Source: Armatimonadota bacterium
GTDB lineage: Bacteria > Armatimonadota > Fimbriimonadia > Fimbriimonadales > Fimbriimonadaceae
Assembly: GCA_016125185.1 (NCBI GenBank)
Contig: WGMG01000006.1
Location: 558,001-622,000, forward strand
Reading direction: 5' to 3'
DNA: 64,000 bases
The translations under genes and the position numbers were made by a program. Below the pieces are notes generated by a model, which saw only the letters and a list, made by a program, of their open reading frames with translations, ran no database searches and was not told where the DNA came from. Position 1 is the stretch's first letter, and each line of letters opens with the position of its first letter. This document shows, in pieces, positions 21,763 through 33,730 of this stretch.

Positions 21763-21878
21763 GGCCGTGGGGCGATAGTGCGGTCAGGGCCAATCTGCAT
21801 TGTGTCTCTGCGGACAACTTGGTGGGCAGGATGCCCACCGTCCTAGGATGCCGACCTCTCTTGATCTGGTTTCTTTGA

Positions 21879-21966
21879 GGCTTTTCCTTACAAGAGGTCG
21901 GGTTTGGCTGAATCACTGGTAACTCCCAGCGACTATGTCGTAGGCGTCGTTACCAGTGCCACCCCG
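21879..21966. repeat. 88-base palindromic element, copy 1
   Basis: Begins GGCTTTTCCTTA and ends at CCAGTGCCACCCCGG. Its core is an inverted repeat, CACTGGTAAC (21914-21923) and GTTACCAGTG (21949-21958), around CTCCCAGCGAC and GTCGTAGGCGTC. Confidence 0.85.
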
Positions 21967-22118
21967 GTTGGACCCCTTCAGGTCATTTCGCTTTGGTGCT
22001 CATTGATCTTGATTGGCCAGACGGGCTGTGCGACACTATAATTTGATAGGGACTATTTTCTGCGAGCGAGACGCTCGCAACTCTCAGTGGGCCTAACTCG
22101 TTTGTTCTGCTTTCTCTG

Positions 22119-22201
22119 TGGATTTTCCTCTCTCGTCGTTCCGCGCAGGATCTTGCGGAACGACACTCTCTCCTAATTTCCTTCGGAGAATTCGGAGAAA
22201 G
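22119..22201. repeat. Composite hairpin repeat, copy 1 (family B)
   Basis: CTCTCGTCGTTCCGC, then GCGGAACGACAC (first hairpin), then CTCTCCTAATTTCC, loop TTC, GGAGAATTCGGAGA (second hairpin). The same order recurs at 33651-33730; the second hairpin alone recurs at 36718-36752. Confidence 0.8.
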
Positions 22202-22208
22202 GTTATGG

Positions 22209-22296
22209 GGCTTTTCCTTAAGGAAGGTTGGGTTCGAATGAATCACTGGTAACTCCCAGCGACGGCGTCGCAGGCGTCGTTACCAGTGCCACCCGG
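22209..22296. repeat. 88-base palindromic element, copy 2
   Basis: Same layout as the copy at 21879, 330 bases downstream in the same orientation: GGCTTTTCCTTA, then CACTGGTAAC (22244-22253) and GTTACCAGTG (22279-22288). The inner loop differs by paired changes (ACTATGTCGTA against ACGGCGTCGCA). Confidence 0.85.
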
Positions 22297-22330
22297 GTTT
22301 TTGTTCGGCAAAACATGATCTTGGTACCAA

Positions 22331-22388
22331 TCCCCCGGTTCGCGCGTGCCTTGCTCACCGACCCCTTCGCCAAGGGGTACCTCCCTTT
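22331..22388. repeat. Dispersed CTCACCGA repeat (family A)
   Basis: CCCCCGGTTCGCGCG, then GCTCACCGACCCCTTC, GCCA, AGGGGTACCTCC. The GACCCCTT and AAGGGGTA blocks form a small hairpin. Belongs to the family described at 5128. Confidence 0.75.
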
Positions 22389-22459
22389 GTAGCTATCGAT
22401 ATAGATTTGGCGCTCTTGTAATAGCCTAGCGAACAGAGAATTATTTGAGGTGAAAGTCG

Positions 22460-22465
22460 TAGAAT
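22460..22465 (+). promoter_or_regulatory. -10 box six bases before the BMP lipoprotein start
   Basis: TAGAAT, six bases, ATG at 22472. No Shine-Dalgarno sequence can fit, so the ABC importer operon is predicted to start with a leaderless mRNA. Confidence 0.55.
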
Positions 22466-22471
22466 TGACCT

Positions 22472-23500
22472 ATGACTAAGTTCCTCAGTTTTCTGAGTTT
22501 GTCGGTGTTGGTTCTCGCTGGATGCAGCGGCGATAGTTCGAGCAGCAATAGTTCGGCGGGCGGCAATTCGGCGACGAGTTCAGCGGATTCGGGAACGAAG
22601 GGAGGAACCTTCAAGGTTGCGCTTTTGACTCCGGGACCGGTGAATGATTCGGGCTGGTGCGCGCTGGCTTACGACGGTCTGCAGGGCATCAAGGAGGACA
22701 TGGGGGCCGAGGTATCGAATCAGGTCGCGGTCGGCAACGACATCAAAGAAGCCATGCGGACCTACGCGCAGAAGGGCTACAACCTGGTGTTCGGGCACGG
22801 ATTTGAGTACAACGAGCCGGGCGTACAGGTGGCGAAAGACTTTCCCGACACGGTTTTTGTTTCGTCCTCGGGCAGTCTGACGGCGAAGAACGCGGGCGCG
22901 ATTCGATTTTATTTGGAGCAGTCCTTCTACCTGGCGGGTGTGCTGGCAGGCAAGGCGACGAAGACGAACGTGGTGGGCATGGTCGGCGGGCCGCAGGTGC
23001 CGTCGATCGAATCGACGTTCCACGCGTTTAAGGCCGGTGCGGAGTCGGTCAATCCCAACATCAAAGTTTTGGAGGCCTTCACGGGAGAAAACAACGATGT
23101 CGCGAAGGCCAAGCAAGCGGCGGAGCAGATGATCGGCCAGAAGGCGGACTTCCTTATTCATCAGGCGAACGGTGGCGCCCAGGGCGTCTTCAACGCCTGC
23201 AAAGAGGGGCACATTTGGGCTTTTGGGGCGAACATGAACCAGAACGACAACGATAGCGGCGTCGTGATCGGTTCGGCCGCCATCATCGCCCGCCCGGCTT
23301 TTCTGGAAGTTGCCAAACTCGTCAAGGAAGGGAAGTTTGACGGTTCGACCATTCAACTCGATATGCAAAAGGGTGCGATCGACTTTGTCTACAACGATAA
23401 GCTGAAGTCACAGTTGCCAGCGGACGCGATCGCCAAGGTCGACGAAGTCAAGAAGGATATTTTGTCCGGCAAGTTTGTGGTTCCCAAGGACAAGTTTTAA
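22472..23500 (+). CDS. BMP family ABC transporter substrate-binding lipoprotein
   Basis: 342 residues. A lipoprotein signal peptide ends at LVLAGC, with Cys17 as the lipidated residue, followed by a Ser/Gly/Asn-rich linker of about 30 residues. The mature domain is of the basic membrane protein (BMP/PnrA, Med) family: VALLTPGPVNDSGWCALAYDGLQG, a HGFEYNEP motif, FVSSSGS and QANGGAQGVFNACKEG. Family members bind purine and other nucleosides and hand them to an ABC permease pair. It is the first gene of an operon: ATPase 6 bases later, then two permeases and a tandem PTPS. The ligand here is inferred, not seen. Confidence 0.93.
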   Translation: MTKFLSFLSLSVLVLAGCSGDSSSSNSSAGGNSATSSADSGTKGGTFKVALLTPGPVNDSGWCALAYDGLQGIKEDMGAEVSNQVAVGNDIKEAMRTYAQKGYNLVFGHGFEYNEPGVQVAKDFPDTVFVSSSGSLTAKNAGAIRFYLEQSFYLAGVLAGKATKTNVVGMVGGPQVPSIESTFHAFKAGAESVNPNIKVLEAFTGENNDVAKAKQAAEQMIGQKADFLIHQANGGAQGVFNACKEGHIWAFGANMNQNDNDSGVVIGSAAIIARPAFLEVAKLVKEGKFDGSTIQLDMQKGAIDFVYNDKLKSQLPADAIAKVDEVKKDILSGKFVVPKDKF

Positions 23501-23506
23501 CCTCGA

Positions 23507-24901
23507 ATGGAGTCGGGTCGGGCCACGCTTTCGGTTAGCGGCGTCTCCAAGCGATTCGGTTCCTTGGAGGCGCTGAAGCCCCTCTCCGTCGACTTTCTGC
23601 CGGGCGAAGTTCACGCCGTCGTGGGCGAGAACGGAGCGGGCAAATCCACGCTGATGAACGTGCTTGGCGGCTTTTTGTCGCCGACGACGGGCTCCGTTTC
23701 GCTTGGGGGCGTCGAGCTTGCCAAGGGCGACCCCAAGCGGGCGCGAGCGATGGGGATCGAAATGGTCCATCAGCACTTCAAGCTGGTCCCGGCGTTTACG
23801 ATTCGCGAAAACCTGCTCCTGAGCCAGTACGGCATTCGGCAACGTGACATCGTCGAGATTGAGCGGCGAGCCAAAGCGTTTGGCTGGGAGATTCCCTGGG
23901 AGTCGCGAGTGCAGGATGTGTCGGTGGGCATTCAACAGCGGGTCGAAATTCTCAAGTGCGTGGCGACCCAGCCTCGGGTGATGATCTTCGATGAGCCGAC
24001 GGCGGTGCTGTCGGAGCGCGAGGTGGCAGAGCTGATTTCCTTCATGCGCGGGCTAGCGCGAGAAGGGAAGGTCGTGATCCTGATCGCGCATAAGATCGAG
24101 GAGGTTTTGTCGGCGTCGGATCGCATCACGGTTCTTCGACGAGGCGAGCACATTGGGACTCTGCCCTGTAGCGAGGCGGAACCAGCGCGACTGGTCGAGA
24201 TGATGGTGGGCGAGATGATGCCGTCGTCGGGTGGCCTTGTCGGGGCATCGATTGGCGGCAAGGCTTTTGAAATTTCTGGTGTCTTGGACGGAATATCGCT
24301 TTCGATTGGAGCCGGGCAAATCGTGGGGATCGGTGGTGTGGATGGGAACGGCCAGGTCGAACTCGCGGAGACATTGGCGGGCGTTCGGCGGTTGACGCAT
24401 GGTTCGCTCCGCTTCGAGGGCGAGTCGCTGAACTTCGGAAAGACTTATGTCGGTTACGTACCGCAGGACCGGCAGTCCGACGGGCTGGCGGTCGACCTGA
24501 ATCTGATGGAGAACATGGCGGTCGCGGGGCTGACCAACGGGGAGAAATTTTCGGCTACGCAGCAAGCGGAACGGGCAGTGCGGTTGATCGACGAGTTCTC
24601 GATCAAGGCCAAGTCGGGGTTGGATAAAGCGAGGCAACTGTCGGGTGGGAACCAGCAGAAGGTGATTTTGGCGCGGGTGCTGGACCAACGGCCGCGGATT
24701 TTGGTGGTGGTCAACCCGACGCGGGGGTTGGACGTGAAGGCATCGGCGTTCGTGCACGCGAGACTGCGTGAGGCGGCGAGCGCGGGAGCTTGCGTGGTGG
24801 TGTTTACGACGGATAGAGATGAGCTTTTTGCGATCTCGGATGTACAGTGGTTTATGTCGCGTGGGCGACTGTTTGCTAGCGAGGGGGAGGCTTTGGCCTA
24901 G
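23507..24901 (+). CDS. BMP-type (nucleoside) ABC transporter ATP-binding protein
   Basis: 464 residues with two ATPase domains, like YufO/NupO. Domain 1 has GENGAGKST (Walker A) near residue 45, VSVGIQQRVEIL (signature) and VMIFDEPTAVLSE (Walker B). Domain 2 has the usual degenerate loop GIGGVDGNGQVELAETLAG, the LSGGNQQKVILARVL signature and ILVVVNPTRGLD. In domain 2 the Glu after the Walker B Asp is changed, as is common in this family, so hydrolysis probably rests on domain 1. It is about 40 residues shorter than many homologues. The stop overlaps the GTG start of the next gene by one base. Confidence 0.92.
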   Translation: MESGRATLSVSGVSKRFGSLEALKPLSVDFLPGEVHAVVGENGAGKSTLMNVLGGFLSPTTGSVSLGGVELAKGDPKRARAMGIEMVHQHFKLVPAFTIRENLLLSQYGIRQRDIVEIERRAKAFGWEIPWESRVQDVSVGIQQRVEILKCVATQPRVMIFDEPTAVLSEREVAELISFMRGLAREGKVVILIAHKIEEVLSASDRITVLRRGEHIGTLPCSEAEPARLVEMMVGEMMPSSGGLVGASIGGKAFEISGVLDGISLSIGAGQIVGIGGVDGNGQVELAETLAGVRRLTHGSLRFEGESLNFGKTYVGYVPQDRQSDGLAVDLNLMENMAVAGLTNGEKFSATQQAERAVRLIDEFSIKAKSGLDKARQLSGGNQQKVILARVLDQRPRILVVVNPTRGLDVKASAFVHARLREAASAGACVVVFTTDRDELFAISDVQWFMSRGRLFASEGEALA

Positions 24902-25920
24902 TGAAGCAGTTCGCGCTGACGGTCCTGTTTTTGGTCGGCGTGCTGGTGCTGAGTTTTTTGGTGTTCGGGGTTCCGCTGGGCGAAGGGGCGAAACTGCTGG
25001 CGGAAGGGGCGTTTGGCGACAAAGTCGCGGTGTCACAGTCGGTGGTGCGAGCGACGCCGGTGCTGTTGACGGCGATCGGGATTACCGTGGCGTGGCGGGC
25101 AGGAGCTTTTAACATTGGCGGCGAGGGACAGCTTCTGATTGGGGCTTTGTTTGCGGCGACGGTGGGGAAGGCGATTTTGAATTCGGGGCTCGGGTTTCTT
25201 GGGTGCCTATTGATGCTTTTGGCGGCGGCGATTGGAGGGGCAGTTTGGTCGGGATTGGCGGCGGTTTTGTACCTAAAGCGGGGCGTGGATTTGGTGATCA
25301 GCACGATCCTGCTGAACTTCATCGGCGACAAGCTTTTGCTGTACTTCATCGAGGGACCGATTCGGAAAGCGGGGCAGACGGCGCCGCTGACGGACCAGAT
25401 TCCGGACGCGATGATGCTTCCGAAGTTTTCGCGGCAGAGCGATCTGCACTTGGGGATCTTCTTTGCGCTCATGGTGGCGCTGGCGGTGGGCTACTGGATG
25501 TTTCGAACGAAGTCGGGGTACTTCGCGAGGATTGTCGGGGCGAACCCGAGGTTTGCGCGGGTGAACCGGATCGACGCGGATCGGGTGAAGTTTCGGGCGA
25601 TGATTTTGAGCGGGGCGATTTGCGGGTTGGCGGGTGGCATTCAGTTTTTGGGAATCAACGGTCAGTTGGCGAGTTCGTTTTCGCAGCAGTACGGATTTTT
25701 GGGGATTCCCGTGGCGTTGGTGGGGGCATTGAATCCGTTTGCGGTGATTCCGTCGGCGTTGTTTTTCGGGGGATTGTTTGCGGCGACGAGCAATTTGTCG
25801 CGCTTCGGGGGGATCGGGAATTATTTCGTTTATGTGATCCAGGCGGGGACGGTGATTGGGTTGCTGTTGTTTAGAGCTGTGAGCGAGCGTCGGATCGCGG
25901 CGAAGGGGGAGGCGGCGTGA
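24901..25920 (+). CDS. BMP-type ABC transporter permease, subunit 1
   Basis: 339 residues starting with GTG at 24901, one base inside the stop codon of the ATPase gene. About nine hydrophobic helices are seen, with the BPD_transp_2 motifs of branched-chain/nucleoside permeases: GITVAWRAGAFNIGGEGQLLIGALFAA near residue 60 and FRAMILSGAICGLAGGIQFLG near residue 235. It corresponds to the YufP type. It pairs with the second permease at 26299. Normally the two permease genes abut; here they are separated by 378 bases of repeat sequence. Confidence 0.92.
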   Translation: MKQFALTVLFLVGVLVLSFLVFGVPLGEGAKLLAEGAFGDKVAVSQSVVRATPVLLTAIGITVAWRAGAFNIGGEGQLLIGALFAATVGKAILNSGLGFLGCLLMLLAAAIGGAVWSGLAAVLYLKRGVDLVISTILLNFIGDKLLLYFIEGPIRKAGQTAPLTDQIPDAMMLPKFSRQSDLHLGIFFALMVALAVGYWMFRTKSGYFARIVGANPRFARVNRIDADRVKFRAMILSGAICGLAGGIQFLGINGQLASSFSQQYGFLGIPVALVGALNPFAVIPSALFFGGLFAATSNLSRFGGIGNYFVYVIQAGTVIGLLLFRAVSERRIAAKGEAA

Positions 25921-26298
25921 GCGTCGGGAGCGGGAGAAGCGTGTTTGGCCAAGGTGTCAGCATTGACGGATTGACCACGAGTTTTTGCGGCGATAATCGC
26001 CGGGTCGCTTCCGCCTTTGCTAAAGCTCTGGCGGACGAGACGCTCCTTGGACTTTTGCGGTTGCGGGCCTATCCAGGGGGGATGAGGAATGAGTCTAGTT
26101 CAAGTACTGCGACTCCCTCGGTTCGCCCCGATTCACTTCGTTCATTTCCCTCGCAAGTTCGGCGGAGTGCAAAGCACTGGCTCACCGATCCCTCTCGCCA
26201 GAGGGATATCTTTCGCTCCCTTGGTCGCCACGATACTCTGGCTACCTTCTGTGACCCTCCGGGTCAAAAAGCGGAAAAGGTCGGGGGAGGGGCTTGAG
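25921..26298. other. Repeat-filled gap inside the ABC importer operon
   Basis: No credible gene. It contains a hairpin TCCGCC/GGCGGA around GCTAAAGC (26010-26035) and a family A repeat copy (26111-26215) with GGTTCGCC, CTCACCGATCCCTCTC, GCCAGAGGGATATCTTT. Two open frames cross it but code for repeat-derived peptides. An in-frame ATG at 26089 would extend the next gene by 70 residues of non-family sequence and is rejected. Confidence 0.75.
26111..26215. repeat. Dispersed CTCACCGA repeat, long copy (family A)
   Basis: GACTCCCTCGGTTCGCCCC, a 45-base insert containing GATTCACTTCG, then GGCTCACCGATCCCTCTCG, CCAGAGGGATATCTTTC. The CCCTCTC/GAGGG part forms a hairpin. It lies between two genes of one operon. 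Confidence 0.7.
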
Positions 26299-27165
26299 AT
26301 GATTTCGCTTTTCCAGGTTCTGAAGTATTCGGCGCCGGTGGCGTTTGGGGCCGTGGGCGAGTCGGCAGTTCAGCGGTCGGGAATCATCAATGTCGGATTG
26401 GAAGGCTTGATGTTGAGCGCGGCGTTTGCGGCGACGGTGGCCTCGGATAAGACAGGTAACCCTTGGATCGGGTTGGCGGCGGGAGTGGCGGTGGGCGTAG
26501 CGGTCGCTCTGTTCTTGGGCATCCTCACGATTCGCTATGCGTTGGACCAAATCGTGGTGGGGACAGCCATCAACCTTTTAGCCCTCGGAGTGTGTGGGAC
26601 GCTATTTGAGAAGCAGGGGGCGACCGGCAAGCTGCTGAACCTGCCCGCGATTCCGCCTCTTTTCGGCAAGTTTGACGTGATCCTACTCCTCTTGATCGTG
26701 GCATCGGCGGGATTGGGGTACGTGCTGTACCGGACGCCATTCGGATTGAAGCTACGGGCGGTGGGCGAGTATCCGCCCGCGGCAGAGGCGGCAGGATTCT
26801 CGCCAGCGAAGATTCGGTATCAGGCGCTTGTTATTGGCGGGCTATTCGGCGGGCTAGGCGGGGCCTATTTGGTGTTGGGCGTGGCGCAGTCATTTGCGAC
26901 GGAGATGGTGGCGGGGCGGGGATTCATCGCGATCGCCTTGGTGACGTTTGCTCGATGGCGCCCGTTCGGAATTCTGCTTTCGGCGATGCTACTGGGGTTC
27001 TTTGAGGCGTTGCAGTTCAGCCTGCAGTTGGACGGAAGCAATATTCCGCGGTCGCTTTTGTTGGCCTTGCCGTATGTTGCCACGCTTGTGATTCTGGTAT
27101 TCGTAGGAAAGGGAACGCGCGCGCCGCAATCGCTTGGCACGGCGCTGGACGGAACGGACTCATGA
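26299..27165 (+). CDS. BMP-type ABC transporter permease, subunit 2
   Basis: 288 residues from the ATG at 26299, which follows a GGGGGAGGGG ribosome site. It begins SLFQVLKYSAPVAFGAVGES, then VQRSGIINVGLEGLMLSAAF, the motif that marks YufQ/NupQ-type permeases, and has about eight hydrophobic helices and FSPAKIRYQALVIGGLFGGLGGA near residue 175. With the 24901 gene it should form the membrane channel of the importer. Its stop codon overlaps the start of the PTPS gene (ATGA), so the two are translationally coupled. Confidence 0.92.
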   Translation: MISLFQVLKYSAPVAFGAVGESAVQRSGIINVGLEGLMLSAAFAATVASDKTGNPWIGLAAGVAVGVAVALFLGILTIRYALDQIVVGTAINLLALGVCGTLFEKQGATGKLLNLPAIPPLFGKFDVILLLLIVASAGLGYVLYRTPFGLKLRAVGEYPPAAEAAGFSPAKIRYQALVIGGLFGGLGGAYLVLGVAQSFATEMVAGRGFIAIALVTFARWRPFGILLSAMLLGFFEALQFSLQLDGSNIPRSLLLALPYVATLVILVFVGKGTRAPQSLGTALDGTDS

Positions 27166-27983
27166 AAGTCGCGATGACGAGAACGGTGAGCTTTAGTAGC
27201 GGGCATCGCTTTTGGTTCGCTCACCTGAGCGACGAGGAGAACCGGCGATTGTTTCCCGGCTGGGGCTCGCCCTACAACCACGGCCACAACTACCAGTTGG
27301 ACGTGACGGTGGAAGGGATGGTGAACCGGGAAACGGGCATGGTTGTGAACATCAAGGACATCGACGCGATTCTGAAGAGTCGGATCGTGCCGGAGTTCGC
27401 GCAGAAGAGCATCAACGACGAGGTGCCGTATTTTGCGACGCATACGCCCTCGCTGGAGAACATGATGCCCTACCTTTGGCGAGAGATTTTGGAGGCGGGC
27501 CTGCCGCCCGAGGTGCAAATGACCTCGCTTCGGCTGGAGGAATTGCCCAATTTTTACGGAGAATACGACGGAATGAAGACGACGATCACACGGATCTATG
27601 AGTTTGCGGCAGCCCACCGGTTGCATGCGCCGGGGCTTTCGGATGAGCGCAATCGGGAGCTGTTTGGGAAGTGCAACAACGAGGCGGGGCACGGGCACAA
27701 CTATGTGCTGGAAGTGACGGTGAGCGGCCAACTGGACGAGACTACGGGGATGATGTGTTCGATCATCGATGTGGACGCGGCGGTGGGCCGGGAAGTAGTG
27801 GATCGCTATGACCACAAAAACTTCAACTGCGACATTCCCGAATTTGAGGGCAAACCGACCACTTCGGAGTCGATCGCCGAGATGATTTTCTCCCGTTTGG
27901 ACGGGCATATCCCGGCGACGCTGGAGCGGATTCGGCTGTGGGAAACGCCTCGGAGCGTTTTCGAAGTTTGTAAAAACTCTTAA
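27162..27983 (+). CDS. Fused tandem 6-pyruvoyl-tetrahydropterin synthase / QueD-like protein
   Basis: 273 residues made of two PTPS-fold domains. Domain 2 (about 143-273) is complete: zinc ligands His152, His177, His179, catalytic Cys171 in FGKCNNEAGHGHNY, Asp217-His218 in YDHKNFN, and Glu261 for pterin binding. Domain 1 (about 3-140) keeps the zinc ligands His15, His40, His42 and the Glu near 126, but has Trp34 at the Cys position and Ala80-Gln81 at the Asp-His position. It may therefore bind a pterin or a 7-deazaguanine precursor without turning it over. PTPS-fold enzymes act in biopterin, folate or queuosine synthesis. The ATGA overlap with an importer permease suggests a link between uptake and this enzyme. 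Confidence 0.9.
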   Translation: MKVAMTRTVSFSSGHRFWFAHLSDEENRRLFPGWGSPYNHGHNYQLDVTVEGMVNRETGMVVNIKDIDAILKSRIVPEFAQKSINDEVPYFATHTPSLENMMPYLWREILEAGLPPEVQMTSLRLEELPNFYGEYDGMKTTITRIYEFAAAHRLHAPGLSDERNRELFGKCNNEAGHGHNYVLEVTVSGQLDETTGMMCSIIDVDAAVGREVVDRYDHKNFNCDIPEFEGKPTTSESIAEMIFSRLDGHIPATLERIRLWETPRSVFEVCKNS

Positions 27984-28109: not shown

Positions 28110-28152
28110 CTCCGATTTTCGGAGAGCTCGGACGCGTGCGTGTCCGGGCTCT
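28110..28152 (+). promoter_or_regulatory. Two adjacent hairpins in the HNH gene leader
   Basis: CTCCG/CGGAG (28110-28124), then AGAGCTCGGAC/GTCCGGGCTCT with an 8-base loop (28123-28152), followed by TCTTGCTTT. A -10-like GATAAT lies at 28090-28095. The two stems share two bases and could be alternative structures, or the second may terminate transcription from upstream. Confidence 0.4.
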
Positions 28153-28202
28153 TCTTGCTTTAAGGGGTGCCATTTCCTTGGTTTTTAGAGAGAGGAAGGA
28201 AA

Positions 28203-33650: not shown

Positions 33651-33730
33651 GGATTTTCGCCTCTCGTCGTTCTGCGCTTGGGTTGCTGAACGACACTTTC
33701 TCCAAATTTCCTTCAGAAATTTGGAGAAAG
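33651..33730. repeat. Composite hairpin repeat, copy 2 (family B)
   Basis: CTCTCGTCGTTCTGC, GCTGAACGACAC, then CTTTCTCCAAATTTCC, loop TTC, AGAAATTTGGAGAAAG. It matches 22119-22201 in order and spacing, with compensating changes in the second stem. The rest of the 250-base gap holds nothing recognisable. Confidence 0.8.

Follow-up and report, generated by a model that had tools for sequence, protein, structure and literature searches.

The pathway made up of FolE, PTPS-II and sepiapterin reductase occurs in animals and in certain bacteria, Synechococcus among them. Synthesis of tetrahydrobiopterin (BH4) takes three enzymes, FolE, PTPS and sepiapterin reductase (PMC5041015), and, by its title, Burgisser et al. 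1995 (cited in PMC2229834) describes an intersubunit catalytic triad in PTPS. QueD (6-carboxytetrahydropterin synthase) belongs to the same T-fold family and has the same zinc site. BMP/PnrA nucleoside importers (PnrA, BmpD, BmpA, Lbp) consist of a lipoprotein, an ATPase with two ABC domains and two permeases. AtzT (6pi5, 6pi6, 6pii), which binds guanine and 2-hydroxyatrazine, holds its planar heterocycle between aromatic rings; guanine lies between a Tyr and a Trp and is contacted by Glu165 and Ser97 (PMC6834077). How pterins cross bacterial membranes was given as unknown in a 2026 review.

Here we describe an Armatimonadota operon in which an importer of the BMP type is joined to a tandem PTPS. 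It lies in a 64,000-nucleotide stretch of DNA, the window, from a 4.52-Mb genome that is 96% complete. The locus and its relatives share with the BH4 pathway its three enzyme families, whose genes adjoin in many of the relatives. They differ from it by a fused, tandem PTPS in which the first domain is degenerate, and by an attached transporter. The five genes, we propose, make up the transport and PTPS portion of a BH4-type operon whose importer serves for a pterin, a joint reading to which we assign a probability of roughly 0.55.

Operon structure and conserved gene order

The operon and its flanking hairpin contain the following features.

22472-23500, + strand: BMP-family lipoprotein, the substrate-binding protein (linked type: Trp62, His109, Glu112, Asn254); PF02608, E 4e-47
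23507-24901, + strand: ATPase with two ABC domains; PF00005 (ABC_tran), E 2e-46, in two stretches
24901-25920, + strand: permease 1, GTG start; PF02653 (BPD_transp_2), E 1e-33
25921-26298, no strand: 378-bp non-coding insert between permease 1 and permease 2, missing from genomes G220 and G173
26299-27165, + strand: permease 2, ATG start at 26299; PF02653 (BPD_transp_2), E 2e-36
27162-27578, + strand: tandem PTPS, domain 1 (residues 1-139); zinc His and pterin Glu retained, catalytic Cys and His gone
27579-27983, + strand: tandem PTPS, domain 2 (residues 140-273); complete PTPS-II-type active site
28121-28154, + strand: terminator-like hairpin 3' of the PTPS gene, a 15-pair stem followed by a T-rich tail; consensus match only

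Pfam confirmed all five genes of the original prediction, namely the BMP lipoprotein, the ATPase, the two permeases and a PTPS with two domains (E 9e-53), the last coupled by an ATGA overlap in which the PTPS ATG, at 27162, comes before the last base of permease 2, at 27165. The lipobox of the lipoprotein is LAGC, with Cys18. Packing of the importer genes is not tight throughout: the 378-bp insert separates the permease genes of the window genome, which in the close relatives G220 and G173 share a 4-base overlap. A 38-bp stretch of the insert recurs elsewhere in the window genome (L223). This insert is repeat-rich, as is the leader at 21763-22471, which contains a 94-bp repeat pair (21876-21969 and 22206-22299) with more copies at 33651 and 36714. 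Sigma-70 promoter matches were at chance level in number.

A protein search with the tandem PTPS (E <= 1e-10) returned matches in 116 of the 251 genomes of the phylum, a few single-domain ones counted in. Within the same family, permease 2 or the full transporter set lies immediately 5' of PTPS in 35 of the 38 genomes examined, the exceptions being G204, G196 and G216. In other families the transporter adjoins PTPS in 15 of 40 further loci, which represent seven families (f4, f8, f10, f11, f16, f19, f37), and one additional f16 locus has the transporter 2.9 kb from PTPS. That one gene order recurs across many genera and in several families excludes chance adjacency and a trait of a single genus, so the conserved neighbourhood that the prediction had named as its check is borne out. 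Families f3 and f25 and most of f16 have the tandem PTPS with no adjoining BMP, and the importer is thus not required for the pathway. The pairing of a BMP importer with a tandem PTPS was not found in the literature searched, in which subscription journals were mostly not included.

At one locus (L221 5816-11053, genome G007) the order is BMP-ATPase-permease-permease-FolE with no PTPS, and G007 encodes phenylalanine hydroxylase. Here the transporter stays with a pterin gene even after loss of the tandem PTPS.

The tandem PTPS and its pathway

Foldseek searches with an AlphaFold model of the tandem PTPS (pLDDT 95.8) ranked rat, human and worm PTPS at the top, with 8e-15 for PTPS against 1e-9 for QueD. 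Domain 2 matched mammalian PTPS 1b66 with an E-value of 6e-29, whereas QueD 4ntm reached only 1e-6. This domain has the residues by which PTPS-II is recognized: three zinc His, the catalytic Cys, the Asp-His pair and the pterin-anchoring Glu (motif CNNEAGHGHNY; Asp217-His218; Glu261). In an alignment of 90 rows, into which some genomes entered twice, His152, His177, His179, Cys171, Asp217 and Glu261 are present in every row and His218 in 88. Domain 2 is PTPS-II-like by these residues and, by its matches, nearer to the PTPS of the BH4 pathway than to QueD. The zinc histidines of domain 1 are retained in 79, 80 and 88 of the 90 rows and its pterin Glu in 85; Trp or another residue replaces the catalytic Cys, and the catalytic His is usually Gln or Gly. 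Domain 1 is a catalytically degenerate copy that probably has a role in assembly or binding.

Because the PTPS triad spans subunits, one domain can supply half a site. The tandem PTPS of Poribacteria (L117-L133, L171) has a first domain that lacks the Cys and keeps the Asp-His pair, and a second domain that has the Cys and has mostly lost the His; the domain 1 pattern of Bacilli (L114-L147) and cyanobacteria (L153-L172) is the opposite. Such reciprocal loss of half-sites would fit catalysis across the domain interface. The Armatimonadota protein (27162-27983 in the window) keeps Cys and Asp-His together, in domain 2 only. In Acidobacteria each PTPS domain has a gene of its own, the two genes following one another and in most cases both encoding catalytic residues (L137 4358-5200, L143 6998-7891, L146 983-1915, L155 6995-7912, L161 6998-7951), an arrangement that likely represents a stage preceding fusion.

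Directly 3' of PTPS, relatives have FolE (GTP cyclohydrolase I), an SDR or, in family f16, FolE2. Three loci (L036, L040, L044) read PTPS, FolE, SDR, and in the last two the transporter genes precede these in a single run. The orders PTPS-FolE-SDR and FolE-PTPS-SDR, with a tandem PTPS and no adjoining transporter, are also found in Chloroflexi, Poribacteria, Bacilli and Acidobacteria. The operon FolE clears the NCBIfam equivalog cut-off, and a profile of the operon SDR found sepiapterin reductase 2bd0 as the best of 550 PDB sequences (E 6e-52). Phenylalanine hydroxylase, absent from 12 genomes with the tandem PTPS, is present in 50 of the 62 with it and in 1 of the 16 without (Fisher p 5e-8, kinship ignored). 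Counted by family, the figures are 6 of 10 with the tandem PTPS and none of the 9 whose representative genomes all lack it (p 0.011). In G191 the phenylalanine hydroxylase gene stands beside PTPS-FolE in divergent orientation. A BH4-type pathway is thus very probable in relatives with the full operon, and the distribution points to a biopterin-type pathway that is widespread among Armatimonadota and also occurs in several further phyla.

The window genome departs from this layout, with neither FolE nor a sepiapterin reductase gene beside its PTPS. It has FolE2 at C4:164575, unlinked to the operon, in the place of FolE; genome searches found no FolE in it or in its family, nearly all members of which have FolE2. 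No clear ortholog of the operon SDR was found in the window genome, where the best match reached 152 bits, while a true operon copy scores 316. PF01329, the enzyme that recycles the used pterin, is present. We considered whether loss of GTP cyclohydrolase creates the need for an imported pterin and rejected this on the FolE2 of nearly all family members, with the exception of G216. That genome, 100% complete, has a linked BMP set, PTPS and phenylalanine hydroxylase (L232 4516-13581), and neither FolE nor FolE2 was detected in it; it could depend on imported pterin.

In four Bacilli loci (L115, L127, L129, L147) two more conserved genes without a known role come after FolE-PTPS-SDR, and adenylating-enzyme-like proteins and large multidomain proteins are encoded close by. 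These surroundings are perhaps a natural product cluster.

The binding protein and its candidate ligands

The nucleoside contacts of BmpA, listed in a 2026 structure paper (PMC13325309), were mapped onto the BMP proteins with Phe27 anchored on the KSFN motif. After anchoring, every listed position of BmpA bore the stated residue, which supports the mapping. We compared 47 BMPs of the linked type (42 without identical ones) with 28 canonical BMPs from the same genomes. In BmpA numbering, all 47 linked proteins have Ser, Gly or Ala for Asp98, Asn for Asp225 and Ile, Leu or Val for Lys242, whereas the three ribose-contact residues are intact in 28 of 28 canonical BMPs. Phe151 is likewise replaced in 47 of 47, Phe27 is Trp wherever aligned, and position 176 is variable. 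The linked proteins have the BMP fold and Pfam domain overall and retain Asp24 and the first aromatic platform position, and they lack the ribose contacts and the Phe27/Phe176 aromatic pair of the nucleoside importers. The residues found instead form a new, invariant pocket of Trp62, His109, Glu112 and Asn254 (window numbering). Since the ribose contacts are replaced by residues that are conserved in turn, the linked BMP is predicted to be specific for a single type of compound, other than a nucleoside bound in the conventional way.

Glu112 aligns with Arg77 of BmpD, which lies in a loop flanking the base-binding site (PMC7093131). An acidic residue at a 2-amino-4-oxo edge would suit pterins, and guanine too. 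The AlphaFold model of the lipoprotein (pLDDT 89.8) gave AtzT, Lbp and BmpD as best Foldseek matches, and PnrA and RfuA were also matched. AtzT likewise has no ribose pocket; its identity is about 30% and its gene context is different. Most of the same genomes encode a canonical BMP with an intact nucleoside pocket as a separate protein. One ABC transporter shared by both BMPs was considered, given that the canonical BMP gene has no adjoining transporter genes; the idea is countered by a second BMP-type ATPase and permease pair in the window genome (G000:C6:17194-18820).

Outside the phylum, the linked signature was found in only four Poribacteria among 39 genomes with a tandem PTPS (344-371 bits). 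In these four the linked BMP adjoins a molybdopterin oxidoreductase gene, not the PTPS operon. A tree forcing all linked rows together was not worse than the free tree (p-AU 0.75), which is compatible with a single clade of linked BMPs. At one of the Poribacteria loci (L299 4577-7273) the oxidoreductase beside the linked BMP is formate-dehydrogenase-like, and its reading frame is broken in two close to the active-site position, perhaps by a selenocysteine TGA.

The original prediction described the enzyme as PTPS/QueD-like and the ligand as a pterin, a deazapurine or a related nucleoside. Were the tandem PTPS the QueD of this genome, with an importer that salvages queuosine precursors, one would point to the window genome itself, where QueC is present and the tandem protein is the only detectable PTPS-family member. 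We regard this as very unlikely. QueD is a single short domain with different motif spacing, and a separate QueD-like protein accompanies the tandem PTPS in 31 of 38 family members, its gene standing beside QueC in G148; in several genomes, G013, G027, G062 and G208 among them, the tandem protein occurs and a real QueC does not; domain 2 is PTPS-II-like; and an Rfam search found neither a preQ1 riboswitch nor any other Rfam family in the operon region. The QueD and deazapurine part of the prediction is not supported by these observations, and queuosine as the main role was rejected on the separate QueD-like proteins and the genomes without QueC. The proposed search of the window genome for queuosine and folate genes succeeded in part, yielding QueC and FolE2 and neither FolE nor a separate QueD; there, QueD may be encoded in a gap, or queuosine synthesis may draw on the tandem PTPS as well or on a different enzyme. 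An ordinary nucleoside transporter that shares the operon with PTPS fortuitously would accord with the BMPs of known ligand, which are mostly nucleoside binders (PMC13325309, PMC7093131), and with the name of the Pfam family, PnrA-like. Given the replacements at the three ribose-contact positions and Phe151 in 47 of 47 linked proteins, the intact canonical BMP in most of the same genomes and the second permease pair and ATPase, it is extremely unlikely.

Two further kinds of ligand were considered. Guanine or a similar free base, feeding the GTP pool for pterin synthesis, shares the 2-amino-4-oxo edge with pterins and would fit a pocket that has lost its ribose contacts and kept an aromatic platform, and the best Foldseek match, AtzT, is a guanine-binding BMP. 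However, the guanine contacts of AtzT are not kept, the Glu165 position being Ser or Pro in nearly all linked BMPs and Ser97 also not conserved; moreover, GTP is made in every cell, and a dedicated importer for its supply is less expected within a small cofactor operon. Import of guanine, the main alternative to a pterin, is thus rather unlikely. Another planar cofactor or vitamin (a flavin, B6 or a molybdopterin-related compound) is brought to mind by RfuA, a riboflavin binder of BMP fold, among the fold matches, by a putative B6 transporter as the best NCBIfam match and by the oxidoreductase neighbours in Poribacteria. The B6 scores of 111-324 bits fall far under cut-offs of 400-670, and the recurring neighbours in Armatimonadota are pterin genes, so that we consider such a ligand quite improbable. 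The linked BMPs lack ribose contacts in genomes that also hold a canonical BMP with a nucleoside pocket, which favours pterin import. A pterin-type ligand fits the gene context and the remodelled pocket, and this portion of the original proposal stands; its deazapurine alternative is not supported, and a nucleoside is disfavoured for want of ribose contacts in all linked BMPs.

A proposed route for pterin synthesis and uptake

From the gene content, conserved order, residue patterns and co-occurrence that we observed, we infer which activities the enzymes have, what the end product is and, above all, which ligand is transported. A GTP cyclohydrolase, FolE beside PTPS in many relatives and FolE2 elsewhere in the window genome, would form dihydroneopterin triphosphate, which domain 2 of the tandem PTPS would convert to 6-pyruvoyl-tetrahydropterin, with domain 1 probably contributing to assembly or binding through its retained zinc and pterin-binding residues. 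An SDR of the sepiapterin reductase type would finish the tetrahydropterin, to be used by phenylalanine hydroxylase and recycled by pterin-4a-carbinolamine dehydratase. The lipoprotein, ATPase and permeases would bring in a ring compound that presents a 2-amino-4-oxo-pyrimidine edge; the likeliest is an unconjugated external pterin, which would feed or replenish the tetrahydropterin cofactor pool. The known substrate of PTPS is a triphosphate made inside the cell. An importer whose ligand is handled by this very enzyme, as originally suggested, is therefore literally unlikely; more probably, the importer delivers a pterin that enters at a later step of the pathway.

Judged by gene context and pocket, a pterin is the likeliest cargo of the importer, at about even odds. 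Somewhat more tentatively, and at slightly less than even odds, the operon may represent a dedicated bacterial ABC importer for unconjugated pterins, the first of its kind: a BMP subfamily with a remodelled pocket, inherited with a biopterin-type pathway in Armatimonadota and with relatives in Poribacteria. These bacteria would then both make and scavenge tetrahydrobiopterin-like cofactors. A bacterial pterin importer is a kind of transporter not yet known, and the Armatimonadota operon offers a testable candidate. It supplies a named, purifiable protein with a residue signature, by which the question of pterin transport becomes directly testable.
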